A DNA stretch of 64,000 bases from Candidatus Thiodiazotropha sp. CDECU1 (GTDB lineage: Bacteria > Pseudomonadota > Gammaproteobacteria > Chromatiales > Chromatiaceae). Location: the NCBI RefSeq assembly GCF_963455295.1, contig NZ_OY734020.1:1798001-1862000 (forward strand). Reading direction: 5' to 3'. Position 1 is the first letter of the stretch. Every line of letters begins with the position of its first letter. The notes under the pieces are model-generated. The model was not told where the DNA came from, ran no database searches, and worked only from the letters and a program-made list of their open reading frames with translations. Below are positions 5,828 through 40,204 of the stretch, in pieces. The position numbers were made by a program, and so were the translations under genes.

Positions 5828-6889
5828 ATGGATATTCATAGCAAACCCATTCAGGAACGTATCGATTGGTTAATTAATCATGCCACTACCCACTCTGAAA
5901 GTTACAGTACCCCGGGCAGTTGGCTGGCGCGTACCCGCTATCTTTCAGAACACCCCACCGCGATCGCCGTGATGAAGTGCATGGACGGCCGTATCAACAT
6001 ACCCATCGCCACCAATACACCACAGGGCATTATTCAGCCCTTCCGCAACCTGGGCGGTATCTTCAATCTAGGTTGGCCACATCTTGGGGAGGTGTTGGCG
6101 AGTTATGTGCAGAATGTCGTGTCCGATGGCAGGCGGGTACTGAACTTGATCACTTACCACTACTCCAAGGGGGATCCCCAACGGGGCTGCGCCGGTTTCA
6201 ATTATGATACCGAGGCGGCAAAAGCGCATACCTATCAAATAAAGCGACAGGTGGAAGAGGTGTTCGGCCCTGATCATGAAACGGTCTACCCGATCGTGTG
6301 TGGGTTTGAGACTGATGATGACGCATTGATCCTGCATGGTTCGACAGGAGAACAACTCAACACGGCGGATCTGAGTTTGAGTGATAAAGATACCCTGCTG
6401 CCGCGGCTGGAGGCGCTATTTCCGGATATGTCTGCGCAGATGAGGCAGGATCTATTGCCTTTGGTGGCGGGTAATCTCGACCATGTGTTCGAGGCGCGCC
6501 AGATGCAACGGGAGCTGGATCTTGTGCATCGGGAATGGATGATCTGCGTTGGTCGTGGCTTCGATTTTCTGCATACCCCCAATCTGGCGCTTATCATCGG
6601 GCCGTATAGTCCGAACCTTTCCGATCCCATCGACAAGGCTGCCGGGATAATCGAAAGTAACATGCAGGCTGGGCGCATTCCGGACGATGGCTTCCTGCTC
6701 CTGGCTTCAGTACCCTACCATGACGTGGGCGTGGATCGGGCGAGGGCAGAGGTGAAGTCGAATTTTCTATGCAACTTTGCCGCCGATCGGATCCGTACCT
6801 CCCACCCCGAGCTGTCGCGGAAGATGACTGTAAAGACTGCTGTCTTGAACTGGCATTCCCGGCGTTTGGAGATATTGTCGAAGAGTTGA
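5828..6889 (+). CDS. Divergent beta-carbonic-anhydrase-like protein
   Basis: A 353-residue soluble protein that I read as a divergent beta-class carbonic anhydrase. CMDGR at 51-55 matches the CxDxR zinc/dyad motif. FRNLGG follows at 72-77, then a helix and strand, then YHYSKGDPQRGCAGF with His111 and Cys121. Canonical beta enzymes have His-x2-Cys; here the two ligands are ten residues apart, nearer the spacing of carboxysomal CsoSCA (His242/Cys253) and DabA. The C-terminal 200 residues (from about 150) are not recognised. The gene converges on the DAB operon with a 41-base gap, which supports a role in CO2/bicarbonate handling. A good AGGAAGG site precedes ATG 5828. Activity is inferred. Confidence 0.7.
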   Translation: MDIHSKPIQERIDWLINHATTHSESYSTPGSWLARTRYLSEHPTAIAVMKCMDGRINIPIATNTPQGIIQPFRNLGGIFNLGWPHLGEVLASYVQNVVSDGRRVLNLITYHYSKGDPQRGCAGFNYDTEAAKAHTYQIKRQVEEVFGPDHETVYPIVCGFETDDDALILHGSTGEQLNTADLSLSDKDTLLPRLEALFPDMSAQMRQDLLPLVAGNLDHVFEARQMQRELDLVHREWMICVGRGFDFLHTPNLALIIGPYSPNLSDPIDKAAGIIESNMQAGRIPDDGFLLLASVPYHDVGVDRARAEVKSNFLCNFAADRIRTSHPELSRKMTVKTAVLNWHSRRLEILSKS

Positions 6890-6930: not shown

Positions 6931-8415
6931 TTACGGCAGGCGCATCAGCCACAACTCTGTGGTTGCGTGCATAAAGTCCAGCACTAACCCGGGAAACAGG
7001 CCAAAAACGAGTACCAGGAGCGAGAACAGCAGCATGGTAGCCAGCTCCCTGGGGCGCAGGTCCTGACTGGCCCTGACCTGGCCGTCAGTGATCGGTCCGA
7101 AAAAGCTTTGGCGATAGCTGTTCAACAGATAACCGGTACCGATGATGAGACCGAACAGGGCGGCGAGTCCGGCGCCGGTATGGGTTTCAAGGGCACTGAT
7201 GAGGATCAGCAGCTCAGCCGGGAATCCACTCGTCCCGGGAATACCCAGCGAGGCCAATCCCAGAAACATGAAGAAAGCGGCGAGTAACGGCATCGTCTGT
7301 GCTATGCCCCCAAGGTGGATCAGATCGGTGGAGCCCAGACGATGATGCAGATAACCGGTAAGGAGAAACAGTCCCCCGGCGATGATGACGAAATTGAGCA
7401 GTTGAAAAATCGCCCCCTGCAACCCTTGTTGATTGAAAGAGGCGATGCCCAAAACCACCAGTCCCACGTGGCTCATGGAGGAGTAGGCCAGCATACGTCG
7501 TAGATTGGTCTGGTTGAGGGCTGCCAGGGCCCCATAGAGTAAGCCGATGACACCCAGTCCAGCCAGCAGCCAATGCAGCTCCTGGGCTGCTGTAGGTGCC
7601 AGCGGTATGGCGAATCGGATGATGCCATAGGCGCCCAGTTTGAGACCCACCAAGAGTGCAGCAACGGGGGCCGGGCCCTCGAGGGCAACGATGGGCAGCC
7701 AGGTATGCAGGGGGAACAGCGGGGTCTTAACCGCAAAGCCCACCAACAGAAACAGAAACACCACGATTTCGAGCCCGGCGGGAAGGGGGGTGTCGAGGAG
7801 GGTCTGGTAGTCGAACGAGAGCCCGTCCGGAGGAATGGCGCCACTGATCTCAGCATGATTGAATGCCAGAACCGCAATCGCAAGCAGCAGTGGAATACCG
7901 CCCGCCAGCATGAACAGGGTATATTTCGTCGCCGCGTAACGTCGATGGGGGCCGATCCCCCACAGGCTGATCAGGAAATAGAGGGGGGCCAGGGTCAGTT
8001 CCCAAAACAGAAAAAAGGCCAGCACATCGATGCTCATAAACACGCCAAGGGTGGCGGTGGCGAACAGCAGCAGAAGACTGTAGTAGACTCTTTGCAGGCT
8101 CTGAATATGGGTCCAGGATGCGAGGGTCACGGCGATAAAAAGCACTATCGTCAAGGGCAGGAATGGGGCGGACAATCCGTCGACCCCAAATCTGAAGTTG
8201 GCATCCAGCGCGGGTATCCAGGGATATTGTTCAACGAACTGAAACCCAGGATTATCAAGCTCCAGCAGGGCAACAACAGCCACCGCGGGGAGCAGGGCGC
8301 CCAACAGCGTGGCGAGGGTGACCAGACGTGCCTTGGGGACCGGAAAAAGCCAGATCATTCCCGCACCCACAAGTGGCAGTAGCAGCAGTATAGTTAGCAG
8401 TGGCAGATCAGTCAT
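6931..8415 (-). CDS. NuoM-like proton-channel subunit, last gene of DAB operon
   Basis: A 494-residue, roughly 14-helix membrane protein of the NuoL/M/N (Mrp antiporter-like) family. The residues used for proton transfer in NuoM are all visible: Glu in LFWELTLAPLY (helix 5), Lys in FAVKTPLFPLH (helix 7), Lys in VGLKLGAYG (helix 8) and Glu in GFPAELLIL (helix 12). No other complex I genes are nearby, so it probably serves the DabA/DabB machine rather than NADH dehydrogenase. ATG 8415 is preferred, with ATG 8433 as an alternative; neither has a strong ribosome site. It lies 29 bases after the previous gene. Confidence 0.85.
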   Translation of the reverse strand: MTDLPLLTILLLLPLVGAGMIWLFPVPKARLVTLATLLGALLPAVAVVALLELDNPGFQFVEQYPWIPALDANFRFGVDGLSAPFLPLTIVLFIAVTLASWTHIQSLQRVYYSLLLLFATATLGVFMSIDVLAFFLFWELTLAPLYFLISLWGIGPHRRYAATKYTLFMLAGGIPLLLAIAVLAFNHAEISGAIPPDGLSFDYQTLLDTPLPAGLEIVVFLFLLVGFAVKTPLFPLHTWLPIVALEGPAPVAALLVGLKLGAYGIIRFAIPLAPTAAQELHWLLAGLGVIGLLYGALAALNQTNLRRMLAYSSMSHVGLVVLGIASFNQQGLQGAIFQLLNFVIIAGGLFLLTGYLHHRLGSTDLIHLGGIAQTMPLLAAFFMFLGLASLGIPGTSGFPAELLILISALETHTGAGLAALFGLIIGTGYLLNSYRQSFFGPITDGQVRASQDLRPRELATMLLFSLLVLVFGLFPGLVLDFMHATTELWLMRLP

Positions 8416-8444
8416 GGTGTCGAATGGTCCCATTTGCAGCAGTC

Positions 8445-9959
8445 TCAATGGGCGGTGTAAATAGCGCTCAATGCAGCGAGCGGCTTATCAATCAGGGTTA
8501 GCCAGGGCTCTATGAAGAAACCGGCACTCAGCAGCACCACTATCAGGGCGCTGACTACGAACACTTCAGGTTTTGAAATGGGGATCACCTGAAACGGCTG
8601 TCTACCACTGGGACGGGGTGCCAGAAAGGCCCGCTGGAAGGCCCATAAGAGAAAGCCTGCCGCCACCACATTACCCAGGGCGGATGCGATGGTCACCAAT
8701 GCACCGAATTTATGAATGGCTGACTCAAGAATCAGATGCGCGGCATCGAATCCCGGTGTCCCTGGCATGCCGATGATGGCAAGCCCGCCGATGAGAAAGG
8801 TGATGCCAAGGAAAGGCAGGCTATCGAACAGGCCGCCCAGATTGTGCAGCAAGGTCGTGTGGGTGCGCCGAAACAGCAATCCCGTGGTAAATACCAGGGC
8901 TGCCAGGGCCAGGCCAAAAGTGGCCGAAAGAATCACACTGCCCATAAAGGCGGCATGTTCCAGACTGAAGATACCCAATATCAGGATCCCGGTATGGGAG
9001 ATCACCGCATAGGCGAGCAGCCGGCGCAGATTATCCTGCATCATGGCGAGAAACGCAGCGTAGAAGATTCCGGTTAGGGCGAACGTGACCACATAGCTGT
9101 GCCATTCAGTGACCGCGGTGGGTAACAGGGGTAGTACAAAGCGCAGCAGACCGTAGATACCGATCTTGAGGCCGAGCAGCAGGGTGGGTGCGACCGCCAC
9201 ATTGCCATGTTCAGCAACCATCGGCAGCCAACCGTGCAGGGGGAAGAGCGGGGTGCGAATCGCCAGCCCATAAAAGAGCAGAAAGAAGGCGACTGAGCGG
9301 AAGGTATCGGAGACGGGTGTTTGTGCCAGTTGCAGCAGATTGAAACTCCAGACGCCGTCGTGACTGTCGGAGTAGTTCCAGCCCATCAACAGGGTACCGG
9401 CAATCAACAGCAGGATACTCACCGACATGAATTGATAAAAACGCTTGAGTGCCAGCTCCTTATCCGGTGAGTTGCCCCAACGCCACAGGAGATAGCCGAT
9501 GAAGCCGATTTGGGCCGCCGACAACAGCACGAACCAGAGTAGATTGAGGGTGACGAACAGCCCCATCAGGCAGGCCTGCACGGCGAAGATCGCCATATAG
9601 AGGCGGTTGAAGGGTTTCAATTCCCGTACCACGCCATACAGGGCAACCAGCAGGGTGAGCAGTCCCGTCAGCAGAATAAAGATCACCGAGATACCGTCAA
9701 CGCCGGCATGGTAGGTCAATTGAGGTATGATTTGAGCCTTTTCGACAAACTGAAAGCCTGCCAGATTGGTGTCGTAGTGGCGCCACAGATCGATACTCAG
9801 CAACAGCTGCAGCAGCGCAGCGACTAGACCTGTCGGCACGAGCCAGGGGTGGCGGCGCAATAACCACAGCAACACGATGGTGGCCAGTGGCAGTAGTTGC
9901 AATAGGGTCAGAATCGGGTACGAGATCTGGGTCGACCAGTGGAAGGTTTCTATTGTCAC
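8445..9959 (-). CDS. Degenerate NuoM-like subunit of the DAB operon
   Basis: A 504-residue NuoM-like membrane protein starting at GTG 9959 with GAGGGCC upstream. It aligns with its two NuoM-like neighbours, but key charged residues are replaced. The helix-5 WE pair is SA (VLLSAAQIGF), the helix-7 lysine is arginine (AIRTPLFPLH), and the helix-12 glutamate is alanine (GFDAAHLIL). The helix-8 lysine (LLGLKIGIYG) remains. Length and helix pattern are intact and there is no frameshift, so the gene looks selected. It may have a structural or adaptor role rather than full proton pumping. Confidence 0.85.
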   Translation of the reverse strand: MTIETFHWSTQISYPILTLLQLLPLATIVLLWLLRRHPWLVPTGLVAALLQLLLSIDLWRHYDTNLAGFQFVEKAQIIPQLTYHAGVDGISVIFILLTGLLTLLVALYGVVRELKPFNRLYMAIFAVQACLMGLFVTLNLLWFVLLSAAQIGFIGYLLWRWGNSPDKELALKRFYQFMSVSILLLIAGTLLMGWNYSDSHDGVWSFNLLQLAQTPVSDTFRSVAFFLLFYGLAIRTPLFPLHGWLPMVAEHGNVAVAPTLLLGLKIGIYGLLRFVLPLLPTAVTEWHSYVVTFALTGIFYAAFLAMMQDNLRRLLAYAVISHTGILILGIFSLEHAAFMGSVILSATFGLALAALVFTTGLLFRRTHTTLLHNLGGLFDSLPFLGITFLIGGLAIIGMPGTPGFDAAHLILESAIHKFGALVTIASALGNVVAAGFLLWAFQRAFLAPRPSGRQPFQVIPISKPEVFVVSALIVVLLSAGFFIEPWLTLIDKPLAALSAIYTAH

Positions 9960-9969
9960 GTCTTGGCCC

Positions 9970-11526
9970 TCACAGGATCACCACGAAGGTTGCCACCACC
10001 AACACGATCAGATAGCGCGGCGTGGACAATAACTGCTCAACCCGTTGCAGCACACCCCCCACACGATGCAGGTTTTTCAGTAACCCTTCACCACCACCGC
10101 GCAGTACGAGACGGGATTCAAACCAGTAGAGAATATTGGCCAGCCATGTCATGAATTTACCGGCCAATCCGGTGCCCTGACCTACCCTGCCAGCCGGATC
10201 CTCCGAACTGCGTTTCTGCAACGCCTCCCACTGGGTGAGGGAGGAGACGCTGCGGGTATAGACAGGCAATCCGATGACCCGGGTGACCACCTGTTCGTCA
10301 AAGTACTGTACATCCTTCGCCAGGGATACCGTCGGGCGTGTGAGGAGGGCGTCGGACAGGGTGTCGAGCCAGAAACGCTGCAGGGCGGCATTATGCAGCC
10401 AGCGCCAACGCGTCAGCCAAGGGGGAGGCGCTGGAGTGGTGGTATCTATCTGATTGACCAATGCCGGCGATGCCAGGAACTGAAACAGCCGCCACACGGC
10501 ATGCAGGCTCAGATGCCAGGCAGCCAGGGTAAACCACCCCATGCCGCACCAGAGGAACATCAGGCCGACCTGGGTCGTGGTGGCGAACATGAGCGAGCTT
10601 TTGATATCGGACTGGGTCAACCCGACCAGCCAGCCATAAATCACGGTCAGCAGCCCGAGGATGGCGATGGTGATCATGATGGCAGGCGCTTGCTCCAACA
10701 GCGGTGCCAGACGTATCAACAGGATGACCCCGGCATGTACCATCAATGAACTGTAGAAGATGGCCGAAGAGGGTGTGGGTCCCTCCAATGCATGGGAGAT
10801 CCAAGGCGCAAACGGCAGCTGTGCCGACTTGACCAGTGCGGCGATGACGAAACCGCCCGCGATCACCCCGGCCGCGAGGGTCCCGATGTTAGCGGCCTCG
10901 GCATTGATTTGAGGCCATTCGACCCCCCCGAGCCAGAACAATGAGAGGGCGATGCCGATGATGAATCCGGTGTCGCCGACCCGGTTGGTGATGAACACCC
11001 GAACCGCATTTTTTGTGGCTGTCTGCCGATCGATGGCATAACCGATCAACAGGTATGAGGTGACGCCGACGATCTCCCAACCCACAAAAGCGAGCAGGGC
11101 ATTACCCGCCAGCACTATCAGCTCCATGCCACTGGCAAACAGACAGAAGAGCATGAATATGCGCTGGTAGCCTGTCTCGCGGTGCATGTAGTTAATGGAA
11201 AATTTTATACTCAGGAACACGATCAGGGTCACGACCACCAGCAGGGAAAGACCGGTCGCATCCAGGCTGAAGCTGATGGGCAGATGAACATCCCCGCTAT
11301 CGAACCAGGTACCAAGCACCAGCTGTCCGGGCGCACCTAGTCGAACTGCCTCAACCGCCAGGGCCAGGGCCAACAGCAGGGACCCGCTCGCAGCGCCCAG
11401 GGCAACCAGGGATGTCTGGCGCTCACCGGCTTCACCGCGATTGAGTTTGAGGATATAACCGAGGCCGATCCACCCGGCGGCCAGGCAGGGCAGGAGAGGA
11501 ACCAGCCATGCGAATCGTTCAAGCAT
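9970..11526 (-). CDS. dabB: DabB, NuoL-like energising subunit of the inorganic-carbon pump
   Basis: A 518-residue NuoL-family protein. The helix-5 Glu (FVGWEIVGVTSYL), the helix-7 Lys (LVKSAQLPFAPW) and ALEGPTPSSA of NuoL are visible, as is LTQSDIKSSLMFA. In the DAB system this proton-conducting subunit pairs with DabA to drive uptake of inorganic carbon. It is shorter than complex I NuoL, as DabB proteins are. AGGAGGCG lies before ATG 11526, and the first 8 bases overlap the end of dabA, so the two are translationally linked. The C-terminus holds one more hydrophobic helix (YLIVLVVATFVVIL). Confidence 0.92.
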   Translation of the reverse strand: MLERFAWLVPLLPCLAAGWIGLGYILKLNRGEAGERQTSLVALGAASGSLLLALALAVEAVRLGAPGQLVLGTWFDSGDVHLPISFSLDATGLSLLVVVTLIVFLSIKFSINYMHRETGYQRIFMLFCLFASGMELIVLAGNALLAFVGWEIVGVTSYLLIGYAIDRQTATKNAVRVFITNRVGDTGFIIGIALSLFWLGGVEWPQINAEAANIGTLAAGVIAGGFVIAALVKSAQLPFAPWISHALEGPTPSSAIFYSSLMVHAGVILLIRLAPLLEQAPAIMITIAILGLLTVIYGWLVGLTQSDIKSSLMFATTTQVGLMFLWCGMGWFTLAAWHLSLHAVWRLFQFLASPALVNQIDTTTPAPPPWLTRWRWLHNAALQRFWLDTLSDALLTRPTVSLAKDVQYFDEQVVTRVIGLPVYTRSVSSLTQWEALQKRSSEDPAGRVGQGTGLAGKFMTWLANILYWFESRLVLRGGGEGLLKNLHRVGGVLQRVEQLLSTPRYLIVLVVATFVVIL

Positions 11527-14500
11527 CTGCGTTCGCCTCCTGCGGGGTTGTGATCAATGCCGGCCGCAGCGGCTCCGTCGAGCCCATATACCACTCGGCG
11601 GAACGATCCACCTTTGCTATCCCACGATTGTCAGGTTGCCAGGGAACCCACCCTGTCCCAGGTTCGAACAGATGGAATGTTCCGCTATCCGGATCCATGG
11701 ACACCAACACCACCCAGCCATTCCCCACCAGCTCCTGCAGCGGAGGTTGGCGCTGATAGATCTCGGTCAATCTGTCGGTGCTGGCCTCCACCACGGCCAA
11801 AAGACGCATCGCTTCATGGATTTCGATCATCTGCCGTGGCAGCCCGGTACGCAGATCCGAGCTGGCGCCTTCCATCACCCCGAGAAAGCCGGTCACATTG
11901 TGGGTGACCTTGGAACCACAGCCATAGTGTTCGTTGTCCACCGTGGAGAAGTAGTATTCGAGATTGATTCCGGCACCCACCGCGCCATTGATCAACAGAT
12001 GTCGCTCAAGTATTTCCCCACTCGGGTCCTGGGAGGCGTCATAGGAGATGAGGAAGGCCCGCCGGTCGAAAAATGCACCGCGACTGATAGAGCGCCTGCC
12101 GAAGAATGCACAGGCATTGGTGGCATGGCCGAGCTCTGGCCGCACCTGGGAAAAATCGAGGGAACGGCCGAAGACATGGTCAAAGGCCTGATCAGGATCG
12201 GCTTGCTGAGGCGCGGAGGCCAGACGTCTGCAGCGCTCCTGGGCGTGCAGTTGACAGGCCTGTTCGCAGGCCTTTACCAGTTGCTCCTGCGCCGGACGAA
12301 ACTCAGCGGGTAGCCGATCAAGATCGTACCAGTCTATGCTCTCGCCGCAGGTATCGTGCTCGGCACCGATAAACCAGGTATCTTCGGGTATGCTGATGCC
12401 TCGTTCTGCCAGGATCGCTCTAACCCCATCCTGGTTGGCCATCGCGGCCACGAGACGCGCATTCGGTCCACTGAAACGTCCTGAACATGCACCACAGTTG
12501 TATGCCGAAGCATGGGGGTTGTTTTGATTGCGTGAGCCATGACCCACGATGGTGACGATTGGGGCGAAGCCACTGAGTAGACCGATGCTTCTCAGCATTG
12601 CCTGTACCCGGTCCGCCTGCTCCATATCGGTGAACCCCAGACGGGGCGATTCAATGCTCGCCTCCGGACTATCATTCGGCGCCTTGTATTCAATCCGGGT
12701 TGTTACCGGCCTTTCAACCTGCTGTCGCAGATGGGCCAGCAGTCGCCCAAAGGGCCTGGGTGCCAGGATCTTGCCGATCAATACACCCAAGGTGGCGGGT
12801 GCGGCAATAGTCACCAACAAACCGGGGAGGAGGGTCCCTCGGCGGGTGTTTTGTAACAGCAGCTGGTGGCCTTTCTTCAACAGTTGATGGCGCTGCTGAT
12901 GGTGTCTGCCGTTTTCAAGGTCTGCTTCAGCTGGTGTCTCCCGAACCTCATGCACCGGGATGACCGGGGTCGGGATGACCGGTGCCTGAGGTCCGGCACA
13001 GCTGTCATCCAGTCCCCGCCAGTTATGGGGGACATTGAAGTGTGCGGCAGTACCCAGGGTCTCTACCTCTGGATAGATCTCCTCCAGATGACGGCGGGTC
13101 CCTTCCTCACGGTCATCCATGCAGAATACCACCTGCGCGGCTGGCCGCTGTTGTCGATCCGGCCAGGCACCACGTCCACGGTTTTCGGACAGCGCGGTCA
13201 GGATCTGATCACGATAGTGTTTTTCGTAGGCGCGCAGCCAGATATAACCCAAGCGGTCTTCATCGAGTGCGTCGACTGTCTCGAATATGGCCTGGATCTG
13301 CTCATAGCCGAGGTCGCGCACCTCTGTACCGCACCAGCCAAGCTGCTGCATCAGCTGAAACAGGGGCCAGGCACCCTGGCACAGGGTCGGTTGTGTGTTG
13401 GTTTCGTAGCTGCCGCTGCTTTGACGCCATGTCCAGATCAACTGGGCGAGATGCCGCCACCGCGCCGAGTTATCGTCCCCATCCCTGTTGGCGGGTGCGT
13501 GCACTGCCCGTTGAGCACGGCTTGCCAGGTATTCCGGTAGACGGCTGTTGAAGAGTGCCTCGCGGACAGTGAATTCATCTGCCTGATGGTGGAAATACCA
13601 ACGCAGCATGTCGACACTGGATTCGATATTGAACAGGCGCGCACAGAGATTGTGGGCGTAGATCCTCTCCAGTACCAGCCGCACTGCGAGATAGTCGAGC
13701 ATGTCGACACGGGCAGAGAGAGATTCATAGTCAGGGTGGTTGTGCCGCCACAGAACCATGCCGGACCAACCGGGCAGTTCCAATGCCAACCGTTCCAGGT
13801 AACCGCTCCAGTTATCCCGTTGCAAGCCCATTCTATGCAGCTCGCTGATGATGGTTTCCATAGGATCGTTCAGGAGCAGTTCCAGGTGTTGCTGCCATCC
13901 CTCGATATTGCGTAGTTGCCAGTCGAGATCCTGCTCAGCCCTGTTACTCCAATAGTGATAAAAACCAGCGGAGCGGGAGACCGGACGCCAGCTGGCCACC
14001 CCCTGATCGAGAAAATTTGCCAGATCCCTGATCAACTGGGGACGTATATCGTCCAGCAGGTCGTGGCCGGTGAGGGCCAATAGGAGATCCCGCATGGTCA
14101 TGTCATCACCCAGACGTTCGAGCAACTTGTCGAAGCGGTCATTGGCGGCCTGCTGCATCAGTTGGGTGGTTGTGCTGGGATTGCCCTCCACACTGTTCGC
14201 GATATCGAGCATTTCATGCAACAGGGTCTCGGCCTGTTGCGGTGCCAAATCGAGCAACTCCTCCGGATGAGTGGAATCGTGTTCCAGGTGCAGCACCTGG
14301 AGACAGGCGTTCCATAGGTCCATGACAGCACTCGACTCCGTCGTCTGACCACTCTTTTGGGCATGCTTCAAGAGTCGATCCCGGCTTGCCTTGGGCAGAT
14401 CGGGACGGAGTCGTTCAAGCACTCGATTCTCCTCGATCTGCCAATTGAGTTGGCAGCCGGATACAGGTTGATAGGGCATGGTCATGATCGCCACGATGAT

Positions 14501-14839
14501 ATCGCTGCGACGGATCGAAGCATGGGCCGTATCTGCCAATTGGGTTTGGGGTTCGAGCTGCGTCTCCTGTGCCACGCAACTCACCAGGTCCAGGTGAGAT
14601 ATGCGGCCCTGGTGATAAAAGTCCCGATACCGCTGCAACGGCAAAAAGCCGCGGGCGCCGGTAATGCGGCGGGCGCTGGCCAGGGCCTCCTGGAAGGGGA
14701 GATGCTGAAAACCATGCAGGGTATTGTGGTGCACGAAGTCCCGGATGGGTGCCTGGCTGGGGAGCAGATGTTGCAGATGATCAATAGTCTCTCTGATCTG
14801 CTCCCGGATATCGCCGCTCTTGCTGTGGTTCTCATTCAT
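11519..14839 (-). CDS. dabA: DabA (DUF2309/UPF0753), carbonic-anhydrase-like subunit of the inorganic-carbon pump
   Basis: An 1106-residue protein from ATG 14839, which has AGGATCA upstream; a 17-codon upstream extension was discarded. DabA is a cytoplasmic, membrane-associated beta-carbonic-anhydrase-like protein thought to hydrate CO2 one way, driven by DabB. The zinc and dyad residues are visible: CMDDREEG with Cys573, Asp575 and Arg577, then VGHGS with His767 and YNCGAC with Cys782. The His-Cys distance of 15 equals that of Halothiobacillus DabA (His524/Cys539). The N-terminus has the family's VHHNTLHGFQHLPFQEAL segment. It belongs to the long DUF2309 group. Confidence 0.95.
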   Translation of the reverse strand: MNENHSKSGDIREQIRETIDHLQHLLPSQAPIRDFVHHNTLHGFQHLPFQEALASARRITGARGFLPLQRYRDFYHQGRISHLDLVSCVAQETQLEPQTQLADTAHASIRRSDIIVAIMTMPYQPVSGCQLNWQIEENRVLERLRPDLPKASRDRLLKHAQKSGQTTESSAVMDLWNACLQVLHLEHDSTHPEELLDLAPQQAETLLHEMLDIANSVEGNPSTTTQLMQQAANDRFDKLLERLGDDMTMRDLLLALTGHDLLDDIRPQLIRDLANFLDQGVASWRPVSRSAGFYHYWSNRAEQDLDWQLRNIEGWQQHLELLLNDPMETIISELHRMGLQRDNWSGYLERLALELPGWSGMVLWRHNHPDYESLSARVDMLDYLAVRLVLERIYAHNLCARLFNIESSVDMLRWYFHHQADEFTVREALFNSRLPEYLASRAQRAVHAPANRDGDDNSARWRHLAQLIWTWRQSSGSYETNTQPTLCQGAWPLFQLMQQLGWCGTEVRDLGYEQIQAIFETVDALDEDRLGYIWLRAYEKHYRDQILTALSENRGRGAWPDRQQRPAAQVVFCMDDREEGTRRHLEEIYPEVETLGTAAHFNVPHNWRGLDDSCAGPQAPVIPTPVIPVHEVRETPAEADLENGRHHQQRHQLLKKGHQLLLQNTRRGTLLPGLLVTIAAPATLGVLIGKILAPRPFGRLLAHLRQQVERPVTTRIEYKAPNDSPEASIESPRLGFTDMEQADRVQAMLRSIGLLSGFAPIVTIVGHGSRNQNNPHASAYNCGACSGRFSGPNARLVAAMANQDGVRAILAERGISIPEDTWFIGAEHDTCGESIDWYDLDRLPAEFRPAQEQLVKACEQACQLHAQERCRRLASAPQQADPDQAFDHVFGRSLDFSQVRPELGHATNACAFFGRRSISRGAFFDRRAFLISYDASQDPSGEILERHLLINGAVGAGINLEYYFSTVDNEHYGCGSKVTHNVTGFLGVMEGASSDLRTGLPRQMIEIHEAMRLLAVVEASTDRLTEIYQRQPPLQELVGNGWVVLVSMDPDSGTFHLFEPGTGWVPWQPDNRGIAKVDRSAEWYMGSTEPLRPALITTPQEANADA

Positions 14840-14849
14840 GCCACTGATC

Positions 14850-16310
14850 CTATGATGAGAACAGACTCGAGAGTTGTACAGCGGAGGCATTCACCAGATC
14901 GAGTACAGGGGTAGGCATGAATCCGAGCAGGAGTGTGGCTGCTGCCAGGGTGCCTGCCGCCAGCAACTCGGTTGGGCGTAGGTCCTCCACGTTCTGCATA
15001 CCCGGGCGAACCGGTCCGGTAAACAGCTGGCTGATGGTGCGCACGGCATAGGCGGCACTCAGCAGAACACCGATGGTCAACAGGGCGGCGACCCAACCCC
15101 AGCGGGCGAAGCCGCCTATCAAAGCGTTGAGCTCGGCCACGAATCCGGCCGTGCCAGGGAGTGATACGGCGGCAATAAAGGCGAGGGTGGTAAAGAATGC
15201 AAACCGCGGCATCACCCTGACCAGAGAGCTGTAGTCGGTCACATCACGGGTGCGGGTGCGTTCGTAGAGCAGGCCGATCAACAGGAACAGGGAACCCGCC
15301 ACCAGGCCATGGGCGACCATCTGCATCAGGGCGCCGTGCAGTCCGGCCAGGTTGAGGGCGGCGATGCCCAGCAGCACAACCCCCATGTGGCTCACGGATG
15401 AGTAGGCGATCATGGCCTTCAGATCGCTGTGGCGCCAGGCGAGCAGGCCACCGTAGATCAGGCTGACAAAGGCGAGCGCGGCGAGGATGTCCTGCAAGGC
15501 AAGCACCGCATCCGGCAGCATACCCGCGGCACGGATCAGTCCGTATGAACCCATTTTCAATAATACACCCGAGAGTAGTATAGAGATTGGGCTCGGCGCC
15601 TCCACGTGGGCCAGGGGGAGCCAGCCGTGGAGGGGGAAGATTGGCATCTTTACCCCGAAGCCGATCAGAAAACCGAGAAAGATCAAAACCTGGGTATGTT
15701 GGGGCAGGGTGCGTCCGCTCTCCGCCATGGCGGACATGGAAAAGCTGTGGCCAGGTACGGAATCGAAAAGTACCAACAGGCTGATCAGCATGAAAACAGA
15801 ACCACCCATGGTGTAGAGGACGAAATTCAGCGCCGCGCCATGACGGTTTTTCCCTCCCCAGCGGTCGATGAGGAAGAACAGCGGAATCAGGGTCAGTTCC
15901 CAGAATACATAGAACAGAGACCAGTCCTGCGCCATGAAGACACCGAGCATCGCAGACTCCAGCAGGAGTACCAGGATGTAGTAGCCCTTGACGCTCTGGT
16001 TTATCGCATTCGAGGCGAGGAGTGCAACCAGACTCAACAGGGTGGCCAACAGCACCATGGGATAGGAGAAACCGTCCAGTCCCAGGGCAAAGGAGGTGCC
16101 GAGGCGGGTATTCCACTCGGTTTGGTGAATGAACTGCAAGCCGGGCTGGCTGTAGTCGAATCCGCTGATATAGACCCATGAAAGGGCGAAAGTCGCCGCC
16201 GATGCAAACAGGGCGGTGGCGCGGATGGCCCAGTTCGCCTGCCTGGGCAGGAAAGTGATCGCGAGTGCGCCGACGAAAGGGGTTAGGAGAAGATAACTCA
16301 GATCAGGCAT
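14850..16310 (-). CDS. NuoM-like proton-channel subunit upstream of dabA
   Basis: A 486-residue, roughly 14-helix protein that resembles true NuoM most closely of the three NuoM-like proteins in the operon. All expected ionisable residues are present: Glu in VFWELTLIPLFFL, Lys in FGVKMPIFPLHGWLP, Lys in VLLKMGSYGL and Glu in GFVAELNAL. ATG 16310 is chosen over an in-frame start four codons upstream because conserved sequence begins there. It ends 10 bases before dabA and starts 60 bases after the SulP gene. A proton-translocating role in the DAB complex is inferred from context. Confidence 0.88.
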   Translation of the reverse strand: MPDLSYLLLTPFVGALAITFLPRQANWAIRATALFASAATFALSWVYISGFDYSQPGLQFIHQTEWNTRLGTSFALGLDGFSYPMVLLATLLSLVALLASNAINQSVKGYYILVLLLESAMLGVFMAQDWSLFYVFWELTLIPLFFLIDRWGGKNRHGAALNFVLYTMGGSVFMLISLLVLFDSVPGHSFSMSAMAESGRTLPQHTQVLIFLGFLIGFGVKMPIFPLHGWLPLAHVEAPSPISILLSGVLLKMGSYGLIRAAGMLPDAVLALQDILAALAFVSLIYGGLLAWRHSDLKAMIAYSSVSHMGVVLLGIAALNLAGLHGALMQMVAHGLVAGSLFLLIGLLYERTRTRDVTDYSSLVRVMPRFAFFTTLAFIAAVSLPGTAGFVAELNALIGGFARWGWVAALLTIGVLLSAAYAVRTISQLFTGPVRPGMQNVEDLRPTELLAAGTLAAATLLLGFMPTPVLDLVNASAVQLSSLFSS

Positions 16311-16370
16311 ATCACTACCCACACCCGGGACGCCACGTCGGCCGGGTATCTGACTGCCACATCATCATAT

Positions 16371-18137
16371 TCAGTCCCTGTTGACGCCAATCGGGGAACG
16401 CAGTGGACAATTCTCTCTGTCGTAGGTATCACCCAGTTGGTTCCAGACATAGGTCAGTGCCAGACCGATTCGGGAGTGGAAGGTGGTTTCGCCCATTTTA
16501 TCCTTCAGTCCTGTACGCCGAATCGTATCCATGAACTGTTTCTTCATACGTGCGATGACCAGGGTTATGCCTTGCGCCTGCAGACGTTCCCACAAATGGT
16601 GCAATACCTCTTCACCGGTTGCGTCAATCTGATTGATGCCTTCACCATCCAGGATGATGTATTTCAGTTCCGGATTGGCAGCCACCACACCGAGCATTTT
16701 GGTTTCGAAATAGCCAGCGCTGGCAAAATAGAGCGAACCGTCGAAACGTACCACGGAGATAACCGGGCTGGTGGGTAAGTGGCGTACCCGGATGTCGCGC
16801 ATTGTGCCGTCCTTGTAGCGGGAGAGCTGAGCAAAGCGGGGCCGCATGGTGCGCCACAGAAACAGTCCGAGTGAGAGGAGCACGCCGATGATGATGCCCT
16901 TGTCGAGATGGGGGGCGAATACCAGGGTCAGGACAAAGGTGATCACGGCGACGATGGCGTCATGGGGTTGAGCCTTCCAGGCATGGATGATCGGATCGAT
17001 CTTGATCAGGTTGATGACCGCCATGATGATCACGGCCGCCAGGGTGGCCTGGGGCAGGTGGTAGAGCAGTGGGGTCAGAAAGATCAATGTGATCATGACC
17101 ACCATGCCCGTCACGATGGATGAGAATCCGGTCATGGCGCCGGCATTGATATTCACCGCCGAACGGGAGAATGAGCCCGATACCGGGTAGCCGGAGAACA
17201 TACTCGCCACCACGTTGGAGAGCCCCTGTCCGATCAGTTCCTGGTTGGCATTGAGACGCTGACGGGTACGTGCGGCCATCGCCTTGGCGATAGAGATGGC
17301 TTCCATGAAGCCGATCAGGGAGATGGTGATGGCGGCGGGTATCAGTTGCCAGATGGTGGTGAAGTCGAACATCGGCAGTGACAGCGCAGGCAGGCCCTTC
17401 GGGATGTCGCCGACCACTTTGCCCCCCGCCTCGCCGAATCCCGTCAACCATGCGATCACGGTGGTGACGACAACGGCGATCAGTACCCCGGGGAGACTCG
17501 GCGCATAACGCTTGAGCCCCCACATGATGGCAAAGGCGATAACCGCCATGCCAAAGGTCGATCCGTGGGTACTGTCGATGGCAGCCAGGATGGTGTTCCA
17601 CACGGTTTCGTAGTGATGGGCCTCGCGCTCCACCGAAACCCCGAATACCTTGCCCAATTGAGAGGTGGCGATGATCAGGGCGCCGGCGTTGGTGAAACCC
17701 ACCACCACGGGATGGGAGAGAAAGTCCACCAGTACGCCGAGTTTGAACAGACCGAGAAACAGCTGGAATACACCCACCATGAAGGCCAGCAGCAGGGCGT
17801 AGGCCAGATAGGTGTCGGGGGAGGTGGCAAGGGGCTCCAGGGCCGCCGCTGTCATCAGCGACACCACCGCTACCGGGCCGGTGGCCAATTGTCTCGATGA
17901 GCCGAAAAAGGCGGCCACCATGGGTGGCAGAAATGAGGCGTAGAGGCCATAGTAGACGGGTAGACCGGCAAGTTGGGCGTAGGCCATGGATTGAGGCACG
18001 AGCACCAGAGCGACGGTGATACCGGCGATGATATCGGCTCTTATCGTCTCCTTGTCCTTAATCTCACCGATCCAATCCAGAAATGGGATGAACGCCCCTT
18101 TCCAGCCCGCCATCAGACTCTGTATATGGTCCCACAT
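16371..18137 (-). CDS. SulP-family anion transporter with STAS domain (possible bicarbonate porter)
   Basis: A 588-residue SulP protein. The family signature LVPQSMAYAQLAGLP and YGLYASFLP are near the N-terminus, about 12 membrane helices follow, and a C-terminal STAS domain includes FDGSLYFASAGYFE and YIILDGEGINQIDATG. SulP proteins carry sulfate, bicarbonate (BicA) or other anions. Position as first gene of the DAB operon favours bicarbonate, but a sulfate role is possible in a sulfur oxidiser. ATG 18137 has TTAGGTGAAA upstream; a GTG at 18149 is in frame. The ribosome site sits in a hairpin (see 18147-18165). Confidence 0.9.
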   Translation of the reverse strand: MWDHIQSLMAGWKGAFIPFLDWIGEIKDKETIRADIIAGITVALVLVPQSMAYAQLAGLPVYYGLYASFLPPMVAAFFGSSRQLATGPVAVVSLMTAAALEPLATSPDTYLAYALLLAFMVGVFQLFLGLFKLGVLVDFLSHPVVVGFTNAGALIIATSQLGKVFGVSVEREAHHYETVWNTILAAIDSTHGSTFGMAVIAFAIMWGLKRYAPSLPGVLIAVVVTTVIAWLTGFGEAGGKVVGDIPKGLPALSLPMFDFTTIWQLIPAAITISLIGFMEAISIAKAMAARTRQRLNANQELIGQGLSNVVASMFSGYPVSGSFSRSAVNINAGAMTGFSSIVTGMVVMITLIFLTPLLYHLPQATLAAVIIMAVINLIKIDPIIHAWKAQPHDAIVAVITFVLTLVFAPHLDKGIIIGVLLSLGLFLWRTMRPRFAQLSRYKDGTMRDIRVRHLPTSPVISVVRFDGSLYFASAGYFETKMLGVVAANPELKYIILDGEGINQIDATGEEVLHHLWERLQAQGITLVIARMKKQFMDTIRRTGLKDKMGETTFHSRIGLALTYVWNQLGDTYDRENCPLRSPIGVNRD

Positions 18138-19121: not shown

Positions 19122-22100
19122 CTATCCAATACCCGATGATTCCGCCACTTGCTCCTCGATCTCCTCATCACTCTCGTCATGCAGTTTTCCAAGCAGATTG
19201 AAGTCATCAAGAATACAGTAGACAGCGGGCACCAGAAACAACGCCACCAGGGTGGCGGCGGTGAGCCCGAAGGCGATGCTGGCTGCCAGCGGGATCAGGA
19301 TCTGCGCCTGCAGGCTCTTCTCCAACAGCAAGGGCATCAATCCGGCAATGGTACTGATGGAGGTCAACAGGATCGGTCTGAAACGGGCGCGCCCCGCCTG
19401 CTTGGCTGCGGTTATGACAGCTGTACCTGAGGCACGACTGTCGCGGATGAAAAACACCAACAGAATCGAATCGTTGACCACCACGCCAAACAGGGAGGCC
19501 ATGCCGACGATACTCGGCATGGTCAGGTCGAGTCCCAATGCCATATGGCCGAAAATCACCCCGATCAGGGCCGCCGGAATGACGATCATCACCGTCAAGG
19601 GTGCGAGATAGCCCTTGAACTGCAGCGCCAGCAGCATATAGACACCGATCAGGCCAAGCAGGACATTGCCCATGATCGACTGGCCGGTCTTGGCCGACTC
19701 TTTGCTCTCTCCCTGGATATCGAATCTGATGTCGGGATAGCGCTCGAGCAGTTCAGGAATAAAGCTGGCTTTGGCGATTCCTAGCAGCTCCTGGGCATTG
19801 GCCTGGCTTCGATCCACATCCCCCTGCAGGGTCACCGTCCGTTGCCGGTTGACCCGGTTGATGCGGGCCCAGCCTCTGACCTCTTCAATATCCGCCACCA
19901 CGGAGAGGGGGATCAGCGATCCCCCGGGACCGGTGATGCTGAGATTGAAGAGATCTTCAGCATCGGTACGGTCATCCGCGACAAGTTTGAGATTGACTTC
20001 GTAGGTCTCGGGTCCCACTGGAAATTCATCGATCTTGATGCCCTGATAGGAGGCGCGTACCTGTTCCGCCACCTGCCTGGCATTCAGCCCCAACACCCCC
20101 GCCCCCGGTTTCAGATGGAGGCGATACTCCCGTTTTCCGGGACGCAGGTCGTCGCTCAGATCATTCACCCCTTGATGGGTATTGAGCCACTGCTGCAGTT
20201 CATTGGATGCCTGTTTCAGGCGCTCCAGGTCATACCCCATCAGGCGCAGATCGATGGGGCGTCCTCCGGGACCGAAGGTGGGTTCGGTGAATTTGACCGA
20301 TATCACATCGGTGAGCTTGCCTGTCTCAAGGCGCCAGCGGTTGATCACATCATCCAGTTTTGCATTTCTCACTTCAGCGCTGAGCAGGTCGGCCACCACC
20401 CGGGCCACATGGGGGCCGGTTTCATAGGCGTCGGGATTCTGGCCATAGATGACAGTGATGTTCTCCACCAATGGCTGCTGCTCTGGCTGGTCCGGGATGA
20501 AGGCCTGGTTAGTGCGCTGCAGTGCACTTGTGATCTCGTTTACGATGGTCTCGGTGTGCGCCAGGGGTGTCCCCTGGGGCAACAGGAGCCGTGCCTCGAT
20601 CACATCCCCATCCAGGTCGGGGAATCCGACGAACTTCAATTTACCGCCCACCGGCATGGCAATGGCCAGGATCAGCAACATCAGCACAATACCGAGTGTC
20701 ATATAGCGGTACTCAACGGCTCGGTCGAGCAAGGGGCCGAAGCGGGCTTCGCGGAAGCGGTCAAAACCGCGCTCGAAGCCCTCTCTGAAGCGCGACACCT
20801 GCTTACGTTTCATATGCGCCAGGGAGTGACTCAAATGGTGGGGCAGAATCAGAAAGGCCTCGAGCAGGCTGACACTGATGACCATGATCAACACCATCGG
20901 CATGATGCGCAGGATCTGGCCTATATCACCGGTGATGAAGGCGAGGGAGCCGAATACCAACAGGGTGGTTGTGAAAGAGGAGGCAATCCCGGGCAGGACC
21001 TGCTGGACACCTGTGATCGCCGCCTGCAGGGGTTTGTCCCCCTTGCTCATGCGCGAGGCGATATTCTCGGCGATCACGATGGCGTCATCCATCAACAGAC
21101 CGATGCCGATCAACAGGCCGACCATGGAGATCATGTTGATGGTGACACCGATGATCGGCAGGATGAACAGGGCGCCGAGAAAGGAGACCGGCAGTCCCAT
21201 GGTGACCCAGAAACTGTAACGGAAACTGAAAAACAGCCAGAGCACGAAAAATACCGCCAGCAGTCCCTGGGCGCCATTGCGCACCAGCATATCGAGCCGG
21301 TCCTTGACCACCGAGGCCCGGTCCTGGGTCAGGGTTAATCGCAGGCCTTCGGGTGAAAGTTGATTCTCCCTCTCCACGAATGACTCCACCCTGGCGAGGA
21401 CATTGAGAATGTCCTGGGAGCGGGTCTTGGTGATATTGAGGATGGCCGCGCGCTGACCATTGAAGCTGATCTTCTCCTCGTCACGATCGAAGCGATCGCT
21501 GATCTCGGCGATATCGCCGAGACGGATAGTGGCGCCGCTGCTGCCGGATATCACCACCAGGTCATAGAAATCATCCACCTGTTTACGCTGATCGTCGAAA
21601 CGTAACAGGATCTCCTCCCGGTCCCCCTCGAGGCGACCGGCCGGGGTGCTGATGCTGTGTGAGCCGATGGCATTGGCGATTTCCTGTGCCGAGAGTCCAT
21701 ATTGGCGCAGGCGCCAGGCGGGAATCTCAATGCGGATGTGATGATCCGAGAAGCCGTTGATGGTGACCTCGGCGATCTTCTCCTGGGTCAACAGTTTGGA
21801 CTTGAGATGCTCCGCGTAGGCCTTCAGCGTGACCGGATCATCGGGTCCCGTCACAGCAATGGAGATTACCGCATCGGTACGGCCCAGCTCCTCTATCACC
21901 GGCAGTTCGGTCTCGGTCGGGAAGTCGGCGATGGCATCGATCTCGGCATTCACATCATCCAGGAAGCGGGTCATCTCCGCCCCTTCCATCATCACGGCCG
22001 TGGCCACGCCCACACCCTCTCGGGACTCGCAGGACATCTCGTCCAGGGTGCTGATCCCCTCCAGGGCATCTTCCAGACGGCGGCAGATGGCATCTTCGAC

Positions 22101-22268
22101 CTCGTCCGCCGTGGCCCCCTTGTAGATGACCTGGATCTCCACTTTATCGTTCTTGATCTCGGGCAGGGTTTCCCGCTGCAGGCCGGGCAGGGCGGTCAGA
22201 CCGAGGATCATGATCGACGCCATCAACAGATTGGCGGCGTTTGGATGCCGGGCAAACCAGTTGATCAT
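19122..22268 (-). CDS. RND efflux transporter, inner-membrane subunit (AcrB/HAE-like)
   Basis: A 1048-residue RND permease. The N-terminus (MINWFARHPNAANLLMASIM) enters helix 1. The helix-4 proton relay is GLLIGIGLLMDDAIVIAENIA with the paired aspartates. There are 12 helices and two large periplasmic loops. It would export hydrophobic or toxic compounds using the proton gradient, with the adaptor encoded just upstream (4-base ATGA overlap). No outer-membrane channel gene is nearby, so a distant TolC would be needed. The nested palindrome follows the stop codon. The substrate cannot be predicted. Confidence 0.93.
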   Translation of the reverse strand: MINWFARHPNAANLLMASIMILGLTALPGLQRETLPEIKNDKVEIQVIYKGATADEVEDAICRRLEDALEGISTLDEMSCESREGVGVATAVMMEGAEMTRFLDDVNAEIDAIADFPTETELPVIEELGRTDAVISIAVTGPDDPVTLKAYAEHLKSKLLTQEKIAEVTINGFSDHHIRIEIPAWRLRQYGLSAQEIANAIGSHSISTPAGRLEGDREEILLRFDDQRKQVDDFYDLVVISGSSGATIRLGDIAEISDRFDRDEEKISFNGQRAAILNITKTRSQDILNVLARVESFVERENQLSPEGLRLTLTQDRASVVKDRLDMLVRNGAQGLLAVFFVLWLFFSFRYSFWVTMGLPVSFLGALFILPIIGVTINMISMVGLLIGIGLLMDDAIVIAENIASRMSKGDKPLQAAITGVQQVLPGIASSFTTTLLVFGSLAFITGDIGQILRIMPMVLIMVISVSLLEAFLILPHHLSHSLAHMKRKQVSRFREGFERGFDRFREARFGPLLDRAVEYRYMTLGIVLMLLILAIAMPVGGKLKFVGFPDLDGDVIEARLLLPQGTPLAHTETIVNEITSALQRTNQAFIPDQPEQQPLVENITVIYGQNPDAYETGPHVARVVADLLSAEVRNAKLDDVINRWRLETGKLTDVISVKFTEPTFGPGGRPIDLRLMGYDLERLKQASNELQQWLNTHQGVNDLSDDLRPGKREYRLHLKPGAGVLGLNARQVAEQVRASYQGIKIDEFPVGPETYEVNLKLVADDRTDAEDLFNLSITGPGGSLIPLSVVADIEEVRGWARINRVNRQRTVTLQGDVDRSQANAQELLGIAKASFIPELLERYPDIRFDIQGESKESAKTGQSIMGNVLLGLIGVYMLLALQFKGYLAPLTVMIVIPAALIGVIFGHMALGLDLTMPSIVGMASLFGVVVNDSILLVFFIRDSRASGTAVITAAKQAGRARFRPILLTSISTIAGLMPLLLEKSLQAQILIPLAASIAFGLTAATLVALFLVPAVYCILDDFNLLGKLHDESDEEIEEQVAESSGIG

Positions 22269-23584: not shown

Positions 23585-23795
23585 GATAAATCTTTCCAGG
23601 ATTGTCGGATTGACAGATACGTCCATTACCAAGGCATCTGATGCAAGGTTTAAGGTTGGAAGCTGAGCGCTTGTCGTCCCTAGAATGTATCCATCGACAT
23701 AAGAGTCCCCGCCATTAACTGGCAGTAGATCATGCCTAATGATCTCACTGGAAGTGCGTGGAAGTCCAATGTATGTGCGTGCTTGGATGCAGATC

Positions 23796-24302
23796 CTATT
23801 TAAGGGTGCGGTCCGCAAGCTGCATCATATCCGGGATATGAGAAATCAGCATGCCGATCACCGCCAACACGACAACCAGGGTGATGCCGCCGACGAAGTT
23901 GACCAGCAGATTTTTGGCTGAGCTGTGATCGGCCAGGGCATGGGCCACGTCTGCCATGTTGATCACACCCTGGAGATTGTCATTGCGGTAGACGAGGAGG
24001 CGACGGCAGCGGTGACGACGCATCAGCTTAATGGCATAGGTACAGGAGCTATCATAGGAGGCGGAGATCAGGTTGCGGGTACAGACTTCGCCTAGTTTTA
24101 GTGCATTTGCGTCTCTGCCTGCACCAACAACACGCTTCAATAGATCCCGTTCCGTGAAAAGCCCGACCACTTCACTGTTCTCAGTGACCACCAGCGAGCC
24201 GAGTTCCCGCTCCGCCATATAGGCCGCCGTGGTTTGTATATCGGTATCGCTGTCGAGGGAAGCGACAGATTCGGTAAGGATTTTGCTGAGCTTACACGCC
24301 AT
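23796..24302 (-). CDS. CBS-pair protein with a C-terminal membrane helix
   Basis: A 168-residue protein from ATG 24302 (AGGAT upstream). Two CBS repeats cover about residues 8-125 (LGSLVVTENSEVVGLFTERDLL and RRLLVYRNDNLQGVINMADVA). A single hydrophobic helix (LLVNFVGGITLVVVLAVIGMLI) then leads to a short tail. CBS pairs usually sense adenine nucleotides. The terminal anchor is less usual and would tether the sensor to the inner membrane. It is probably a separate unit, ending about 210 bases upstream of the RND adaptor start. The partner protein is unknown. Confidence 0.8.
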   Translation of the reverse strand: MACKLSKILTESVASLDSDTDIQTTAAYMAERELGSLVVTENSEVVGLFTERDLLKRVVGAGRDANALKLGEVCTRNLISASYDSSCTYAIKLMRRHRCRRLLVYRNDNLQGVINMADVAHALADHSSAKNLLVNFVGGITLVVVLAVIGMLISHIPDMMQLADRTLK

Positions 24303-40167: not shown

Positions 40168-40204
40168 CCCGCGCCCCTCATCGCTGCTGTGTTCTGCTCA
40201 GTTA

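Follow-up and report, generated by a model that had tools for sequence, protein, structure and literature searches.

The closest described system to the locus reported here is DAB2 of H. neapolitanus (DabA2-DabB2, PDB 9rd0), which takes up CO2 and pairs DabA, a beta-carbonic anhydrase (beta-CA)-like protein, with DabB, a NuoL-like membrane protein. In its structure, Cys, His, Cys and a water molecule coordinate the zinc, and an Asp acts with an Arg to steady this water without being a ligand, while mutants have shown Glu444 of the finger helix to be essential and Leu658 to be replaceable without loss in vivo (PMC13144422). Ordinary beta-CAs use His as one of two residues at the place of Leu658. 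Before the function of DAB was established, a 2017 study with COGNAT proposed, in its text on neighborhoods of ybcC (= dabA), that more membrane genes would translocate more ions, and assumed that an exergonic reaction powers ion export (PMC5700660). Fusions of NuoL with DUF2309 have also been noted (PMC4633670), and further articles are related at least in part (PMC9080137, PMC10880623, and PMC8438413).

Here we analyze a stretch of 64,000 nucleotides from Candidatus Thiodiazotropha sp. CDECU1 (NZ_OY734020.1, positions 1,798,001 to 1,862,000; hereafter the window), in which dabA and dabB lie within a longer gene set. Open reading frame (ORF) calling of the window identified six co-directional ORFs, all on the minus strand, in the order SulP, M1, DabA, DabB, M2, M3, where M denotes a NuoM-like protein. 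From the gene content and residue patterns described below, we lean towards the view that the five genes M1 to M3 encode one membrane complex, an expanded DAB that would hydrate CO2 at the expense of the proton motive force (PMF) without an NADH or quinone module.

Conservation of the five-gene unit

A previous sequence-only reading of the window described six tightly spaced genes. This description holds, with the last five genes spaced or overlapping by no more than 10 bp (M1-DabA 10 bp with DabA read from ATG 14839, DabB-M2 10 bp; by their coordinates, DabA-DabB overlap by 8 bp and M2-M3 by 4 bp) and SulP lying 48 bp from M1. The best NCBIfam match is NuoM (TIGR01972) for M1, M2, and M3 and the N-terminal part of NuoL for DabB. 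The operon ORFs and their scanned neighbors belong to other families than the NADH, ferredoxin, or quinone modules (NuoA, H, J, and K were not searched genome-wide), in agreement with the earlier suggestion that redox genes are missing from the operon.

We surveyed the ORF neighborhood of DabA in named GTDB loci encoding a relative (the best 80 of 331), as well as in 120 stretches from gammaproteobacterial and Pseudomonadota genomes, two sets that overlap such that one genome may count twice. Loci were called cassettes when their DabA scored >1100 bits to a DabA profile of our making; this threshold is one of similarity and coincides with the clade. We left out loci that were short duplicates (L001, L082-L111, and L192-L230), DabA ORFs of <600 amino acids, and M-family ORFs below set scores. 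Searching for the same gene order recovered M1-DabA-DabB-M2-M3 exactly in 68 of the 79 loci with this DabA type and enough flank, another 39 loci being excluded from the count for too short a flank on one side. Six further loci have all five genes in order, five of them with an extra or split ORF and one (L114) with an overlong DabA frame that upsets the sorting. A Thiothrix metagenome-assembled genome (MAG) contains a tandem M1-DabA-DabB-DabA-DabB-M2-M3 arrangement (L052, 8433-23117), the two DabAs of which are 48% and 41% identical to that of the window. The order is found in gamma- and betaproteobacterial as well as Magnetococcales genomes, sulfur-oxidizing symbionts being among the carriers. 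A DabA 99% identical to that of the window comes from a MAG of a Ctena clam symbiont (L005), followed by named Thiodiazotropha loci at 65-84%. Because the order recurs throughout a DabA clade, the six-gene arrangement in the window is not a chance one. The core unit is the five genes M1-DabA-DabB-M2-M3. SulP, which the sequence-only reading had counted as part of the set, is an optional neighbor, which 25 of 76 loci have upstream. Of 44 loci with sufficient flank, 12 have a CsoSCA-like gene in the vicinity, most of them from lucinid symbionts. At these frequencies, neither SulP nor the CsoSCA-like gene belongs to the core. Canonical DAB loci, conversely, have DabB before DabA, and in none of 77 is there a NuoM-like gene nearby on the same strand.

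The four remaining loci of the 79 (L127, L128, L184, and L241) fall outside this order, as does a fifth scattered case on a contig too short for the count (L255). With M1 and M3 not near DabA in L127 and L128, and DabA standing alone in the other three, the M genes could be taken as optional. This was rejected, as all five genomes still encode M1, DabB, M2, and M3 elsewhere. One (G074) carries M1-DabB-M2-M3 on another contig than DabA, and two (G418 and G422) carry M1-M3-DabB-M2 away from DabA, with M1 cut by the contig end in G422. In the last two (G068 and G199), DabA is followed by a single DabB-M2 fusion protein, and M1 and M3 are unlinked, lying further off or on other contigs. This fusion is one polypeptide in L127 and L128, 1045 amino acids long from the first ATG and 87.6% identical between the two, which belong to one genus. 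Across the five split genomes that we examined, DabB thus always adjoins M2 or is joined to it in one protein.

According to the sequence-only reading, a lack of co-occurrence of the NuoM-like genes with dabA in related genomes would refute it. The data did not refute it in this respect. We also searched 274 genomes of the class Gammaproteobacteria with an M2 profile, scoring at most five candidates per genome. Matches of >500 bits occur in 14 of the 274, 13 of which have this DabA; in the fourteenth (G215, completeness 77%), M2-M3 lie at the beginning of a contig.

Residue patterns in DabA and DabB

Residue counts were made after removing copies of at least 95% identity unless stated otherwise, with three loci kept apart from both types (L164, L178, and L187) and so excluded from the canonical counts; the non-deduplicated set of 119 cassette DabAs contains the window twice as well as genomes held under two names. 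Window DabA, read from ATG 14839, has C573, D575, R577, H767, and C782. The sequence-only reading had given Cys573, Asp575, His767, and Cys782 as zinc ligands; the numbering holds if translation starts at this ATG, but the Asp is not a ligand in the DAB2 structure (PMC13144422). The zinc-binding Cys-His-Cys set is present in 105 of 105 cassette DabAs and the Asp-Arg dyad in 104. The window protein matches DabA of DAB2 (9rd0_A) with a phmmer E-value of 2.3e-74. Its AlphaFold model has a mean predicted local distance difference test score (pLDDT) of 81, and a Foldseek search with this model (database to 8 April 2026) returned nothing under E 0.001, with CsoSCA as the best match (E 0.044) and 9rd0 not among the best 50 listed.

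Two positions set the cassette DabAs apart. The finger-helix Glu at the place of Glu444 is found in 77 of 78 canonical DabAs (the other has a gap) and in none of the 105 cassette DabAs, five of which have Asp; in the window, the finger helix spans residues ~670-692 and contains no Glu. Since this Glu is essential in DAB2, the cassette clade would need another proton path. At the place of Leu658, all 105 cassette DabAs have His (His905 in the window), compared to Leu in 77 of 78 canonical proteins and Phe in one. This His alone proves nothing on catalysis, because Leu658 is replaceable in DAB2.

DabB differs in its membrane part. In transmembrane helix (TM) 5, a Glu is present in 89 of 90 cassette DabBs and in none of 76 canonical ones; the window has Glu151 where DabB2 of DAB2 has Ile151. 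The one exception (L080) has Lys, and L187 keeps the Glu with no NuoM gene among its scanned neighbors, so the idea that the TM5 Glu tracks NuoM neighbors without exception was rejected. Window DabB consists of NuoL TM1-11 followed by a segment with no TM and a single final TM; TM12-15 are apparently missing. Following TM11, a single TM-like stretch was counted in 88 of 93 cassette DabBs (from 107, with 14 left out as they do not have the anchor motif), compared to four in 63 of 80 non-cassette DabBs and five in the NuoL of the host. The cassette DabB profile matches 9rd0_B (E 2.6e-50), the match to DabB of DAB2 covering approximately the first 375 residues, as well as NuoL/NdhF up to residue ~370. 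Beyond this it weakly matches NdhF 561-619 (16.5 bits, independent E-value 0.022), which we take to be the lateral-helix region of complex I. The AlphaFold model of DabB agrees on TM1-11, and only this part was trusted in Foldseek comparisons (343-379 columns at 1.6-3.5 A); longer matches (~540 columns or more) were dropped, most having a root-mean-square deviation >12 A. DabB has the key residues of TM5 and TM7, with no TM12 seen.

These contrasts follow the DabA phylogeny. All trees were made with FastTree only and midpoint rooting. In the tree of 201 DabA proteins, support is 1.0 both for the cassette clade (119 tips with duplicates counted) and for a wider clade of 122 tips that includes L164, L178, and L187; the remaining canonical clade has 0.81. 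In these three loci, DabA precedes DabB, the DabB TM5 Glu is kept, and the finger Glu is absent (Asp in L164). Their surroundings vary: L164 (G025:C1:74000-93500), outside but next to the cassette clade, has SulP and an entire Mrp-type operon (MnhE, MrpF, MnhG, MbhD/E, MnhB, an MrpC-type protein, and three PF00361 proteins) next to DabA, in a genome with no RuBisCO and no bacterial microcompartment (BMC) match; L178 (G070:C16) has DabA-DabB with one very divergent NuoM-like gene, and SulP on the opposite strand; in L187, the scanned genes include no other part of the set than DabA and DabB. The extra C-terminal helices of the L187 DabB show no more than faint similarity to M3 or M2 (highest single-domain score ~8 bits), and no fusion is claimed there.

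The NuoM-like subunits

M1 has the TM5 Glu, TM7 Lys, TM8 Lys, and TM12 Glu of the complex I proton path in 84 of 84 copies. The first three of these residues are present in 74 of 74 copies of M3 and the TM12 Glu in 71, with three gaps; its TM11 residue is Phe in 89 of 91 copies and Leu in two, never His (not deduplicated). Conversely, the TM5 and TM12 Glu are each absent from all 80 copies of M2, the TM7 residue is Arg in all 80, and only the TM8 Lys is conserved (80/80). When tested for an antiporter residue set (TM5 Glu, TM7 Lys, TM8 Lys, and TM12 Glu or Lys), M1 and M3 have all four and M2 fails at TM5, TM7, and TM12. The sequence-only reading had assumed four antiporter-type subunits and hence more proton channels. 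With M2 lacking both key Glu and DabB apparently lacking TM12-15, only M1 and M3 look like complete channels. M2 is presumably a relay or spacer adjoining DabB, its own channel being probably inactive.

In a tree of the subunits, M2 is long-branched and sister to M3 (0.99), the node of M3 itself is weak (0.34), and M1 groups with NuoM (0.97). The position of M1 would be expected if the NuoM-like genes were spare or alternative subunits of respiratory complex I. We regard this as the least credible of the explanations considered, given that separate NuoL, M, and N genes are present in the genome at 3.34 Mb, 1.5 Mb from the operon, that M2 does not have the pumping glutamates, and that 13 of the 14 genomes with an M2-type match have this DabA.

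A second explanation is that DabA-DabB suffices, as in DAB2, and that M1-M3 form a separate, co-transcribed Mrp-like antiporter for pH or ion balance. The antiporter fold and intact channel residues of M1 and M3 are compatible with this, as is L164, where a DabA of the same larger clade adjoins a whole Mrp operon. Nevertheless, no MnhB/E/F/G-type or MrpB/C/E/F/G-type gene is present among the operon ORFs, DabB is beside or fused to M2 in each of the five split genomes, in two of them as a single polypeptide, and the cassette DabA-DabB has neither the DAB2 finger Glu nor the usual number of TM stretches. A separate antiporter is accordingly unlikely. The finger Glu/TM5 Glu swap, the His at the place of Leu658, and the losses in M2 and, apparently, in DabB indicate, as judged from sequence, that the cassette is a distinct DAB class and not DAB2 with spare subunits.

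Carboxysomes, RuBisCO, and the direction of the reaction

We compared the genomes for BMC shell proteins (PF00936, found in microcompartments of any kind) and for RuBisCO (PF00016, which also matches RuBisCO-like proteins). In the gammaproteobacterial sample, BMC shell matches occur in none of 14 genomes with this DabA, 11 of which have RuBisCO (there is no match in G068, G199, and G051), compared to 35 of 51 canonical genomes with BMC matches and 36 of 51 with RuBisCO. Among RuBisCO holders alone, BMC matches occur in none of 11 cassette genomes and in 34 of 36 canonical ones (Fisher 4.5e-9, kinship ignored). The window genome itself has a single DabA, two RuBisCO matches, and no BMC shell match. 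The contrast is weakened in the phylum sample, which was compared for BMC alone, where one of 24 fetched cassette genomes (G479) has BMC shell genes ~26 kb from a cassette with SulP (L240, G479:C1:2118500-2138000), and where none of 16 fetched canonical genomes has a BMC match. The notion that the expanded type excludes carboxysomes was rejected, as G479 has both.

This distribution invites a reverse reaction, whereby PMF-driven dehydration of bicarbonate, supplied by SulP, would feed CO2 to RuBisCO in cells without carboxysomes. Besides the scarcity of shell genes among RuBisCO-bearing hosts, the active-site His, which is one of the two residues that ordinary beta-CAs use at this position, speaks in its favor. 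We find this improbable, as CO2 made in a shell-less cytosol would leak, DAB2 works in the uptake direction, SulP is found upstream in only a third of the loci, and G479 combines the cassette with BMC genes.

Proposed mechanism

We infer the physical assembly, the subunit order, the direction and stoichiometry of proton movement, and CO2 hydration as the reaction from the patterns above. In the proposed complex, DabA, with its zinc carbonic-anhydrase chemistry, would sit on DabB at one end of an arm composed of DabB, M2, M3, and M1. The membrane gradient would drive protons inward through M1 and M3, the sole subunits with a complete complex I proton path, and a charge or conformational signal might then pass sideways through M2 and the ion pairs of DabB (E151/R182 and D185/K233) to DabA, where it would drive the one-way hydration of CO2 to bicarbonate. 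Overall, the assembly would resemble the distal end of a complex I-like enzyme, hydrating CO2 and run on PMF. More tentatively, and with somewhat less than even confidence, we hypothesize that the cassette is a redox-free relative of complex I, a five-protein PMF-driven CO2 hydrator with M1 and M3 as proton inlets and an inactive M2 plus DabB ion pairs as the relay, which forms a separate DAB branch mainly in RuBisCO-bearing bacteria without carboxysomes.

The larger complex I-like arm put forward in the sequence-only reading is well supported, if indirectly, by the conserved order, the retention of parts in split genomes, the DabB-M2 fusion, the TM5 Glu, and the weak C-terminal match to NdhF. 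The proton path of DAB2 does not transfer straightforwardly to the cassette, as the finger Glu and, by hydropathy and model, TM12-15 are absent. This likely makes the arm more probable and lowers the channel count from four to approximately two. A single proton per CO2 at ordinary PMF would already keep cytosolic CO2 very low; coupling or gating may therefore outweigh the gradient, though a steeper carbon gradient is possible in principle.

Several observations weigh against this proposal. M1 and M3 are apart from DabA in G068 and G199, and the two DabB-M2 fusions come from one genus. One genome with this DabA (G051, the only one of the 14 in the class with no M2-profile match >500 bits) reaches 333 bits at best; the contig that carries its DabA breaks off within DabB. 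At the end of DabB, the similarity to NdhF is weak, and the DabB model has a pLDDT <50 over most of residues 419-518. L187 combines a DabA without the finger Glu and a DabB with the TM5 Glu, with no separate NuoM gene among its scanned neighbors. Moreover, the residue contrasts all follow one deep split among DabAs, so the counts are not independent events. Finally, the hosts are mostly without shell genes, which makes their use of a cytosolic bicarbonate pool questionable.

Ion flow in the opposite sense is the 2017 proposal, in which exergonic chemistry at DabA powers the export of ions by several subunits. Outward pumping is normal for complex I-type subunits and several membrane genes are present, yet CO2 hydration is near equilibrium at usual cell pH and should not expel several protons against a normal PMF; uptake by DAB2 has also been reported to be uncoupler-sensitive. 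We consider export very unlikely.

If the proposed PMF-driven arm is correct, it would allow long-range coupling in complex I to be tested in a natural system that lacks electron transfer. Energy transfer along the membrane arm of complex I has long been debated, and an arm with a reaction at one end, two live channels, and one conserved dead channel could be tested directly. The published DAB2 mechanism would then cover only one of two DabA branches, and many carboxysome-free chemoautotrophs, including symbionts, may own a separate kind of CO2 pump.

Locus organization and neighboring genes

Table 1. Coordinates of the DAB operon and an adjacent gene in the window
Feature	Position	Strand	Matches and remarks
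SulP-family anion transporter with STAS domain, 592 amino acids	16371-18149	(-)	SulP + STAS; PF00916 382 bits; alternative ATG 18137; accessory
M1, NuoM-like, full proton-path residues	14850-16322	(-)	PF00361; NDH_I_M 493 bits; ATG 16310
DabA, beta-CA-like subunit, 1106 amino acids from ATG 14839	11519-14839	(-)	PF10070 773 bits
DabA first-ATG ORF	11519-14890	(-)	ATG 14839 is residue 18 of this ORF
DabB, NuoL-like, 518 amino acids	9970-11526	(-)	PF00361 + PF00662; TM5 Glu151 kept
M2, NuoM fold; no Glu in the key TM5 and TM12 positions, Arg (R235) for the TM7 Lys	8445-9959	(-)	PF00361; residue counts
M3, NuoM-like; key Glu of TM5 and TM12 and key Lys of TM7 and TM8 present, TM11 without His	6931-8448	(-)	PF00361
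Distant CsoSCA-like carbonic anhydrase, 353 amino acids; convergent neighbor, not core	5828-6889	(+)	PF20686 24.8 bits (cut-off 21.5)

The SulP protein scores 471 bits against NCBIfam sulP and 147 bits against the BicA model, below the cut-off of 880 for the latter. The CsoSCA-like protein has weak matches to CsoSCA in the PDB (best E 0.0069), and a gene of this type flanks the operon end in most lucinid-symbiont loci, although the host genome has no BMC shell match. Promoter- and terminator-like sites are not above their numbers in shuffled sequence (6 against 8.0 and 10 against 10.7, respectively).

Two gene pairs encoding RND efflux pumps (AcrB-type with adaptor) lie on the minus strand at 19122-23818 and 37120-41332; the former is upstream of the DAB operon, a placement shared by several lucinid-symbiont loci. 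A protein at 35769-36821 (-) has a weak TIR_2 match under the Pfam cut-off (24.5 of 28 bits). Elsewhere in the host genome, two more PF00361 genes are found separate from the complex I set (G000:C1:1679218-1681613), one of which groups with an L164 Mrp-operon protein in the tree.

Comparison with known systems

The neighborhood itself has been reported previously: the clade C ybcC neighborhoods described with COGNAT have ybcC upstream of a nuoL homolog, frequently with NuoM and SulP genes (PMC5700660), so the gene arrangement is not new. The text on clade C in that study says nothing of M2 degeneration, the finger/TM5 swap, the DabB-M2 fusion, or carboxysomes. A limited search of the open literature likewise found, in the titles and abstract beginnings of the matches listed, no report of the residue swap, an inactive M2, a shortened DabB, its fusion to M2, or the contrast in carboxysomes, which is weak evidence of novelty.

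Mrp antiporters share the MrpA/MrpD-type folds with the cassette, while the MrpB, C, E, F, and G types are absent from the cassette operon ORFs; in L164, a full Mrp operon lies beside a related DabA. The cyanobacterial NDH-1MS complex (NdhD3/F3-CupA) is described, at least in outline, as a CO2-hydrating system that likewise combines a beta-CA-like subunit with NuoL- and NuoM-type subunits. It has a ferredoxin/quinone module and core subunits, none of which are among the cassette operon ORFs, and its CupA is presumably not a PF10070 protein. DAB2 and the cassette have in common PF10070, the zinc Cys-His-Cys set, the Asp-Arg dyad, a NuoL-like DabB, and the absence of a redox partner. In the cassette, however, the DabA gene comes before DabB rather than after it as in the canonical loci surveyed, three extra NuoM-like proteins are encoded, the finger Glu444 is absent, His replaces Leu658, DabB has a TM5 Glu in place of Ile151, and DabB has fewer TM stretches than the 15 TM of the DAB2 type.

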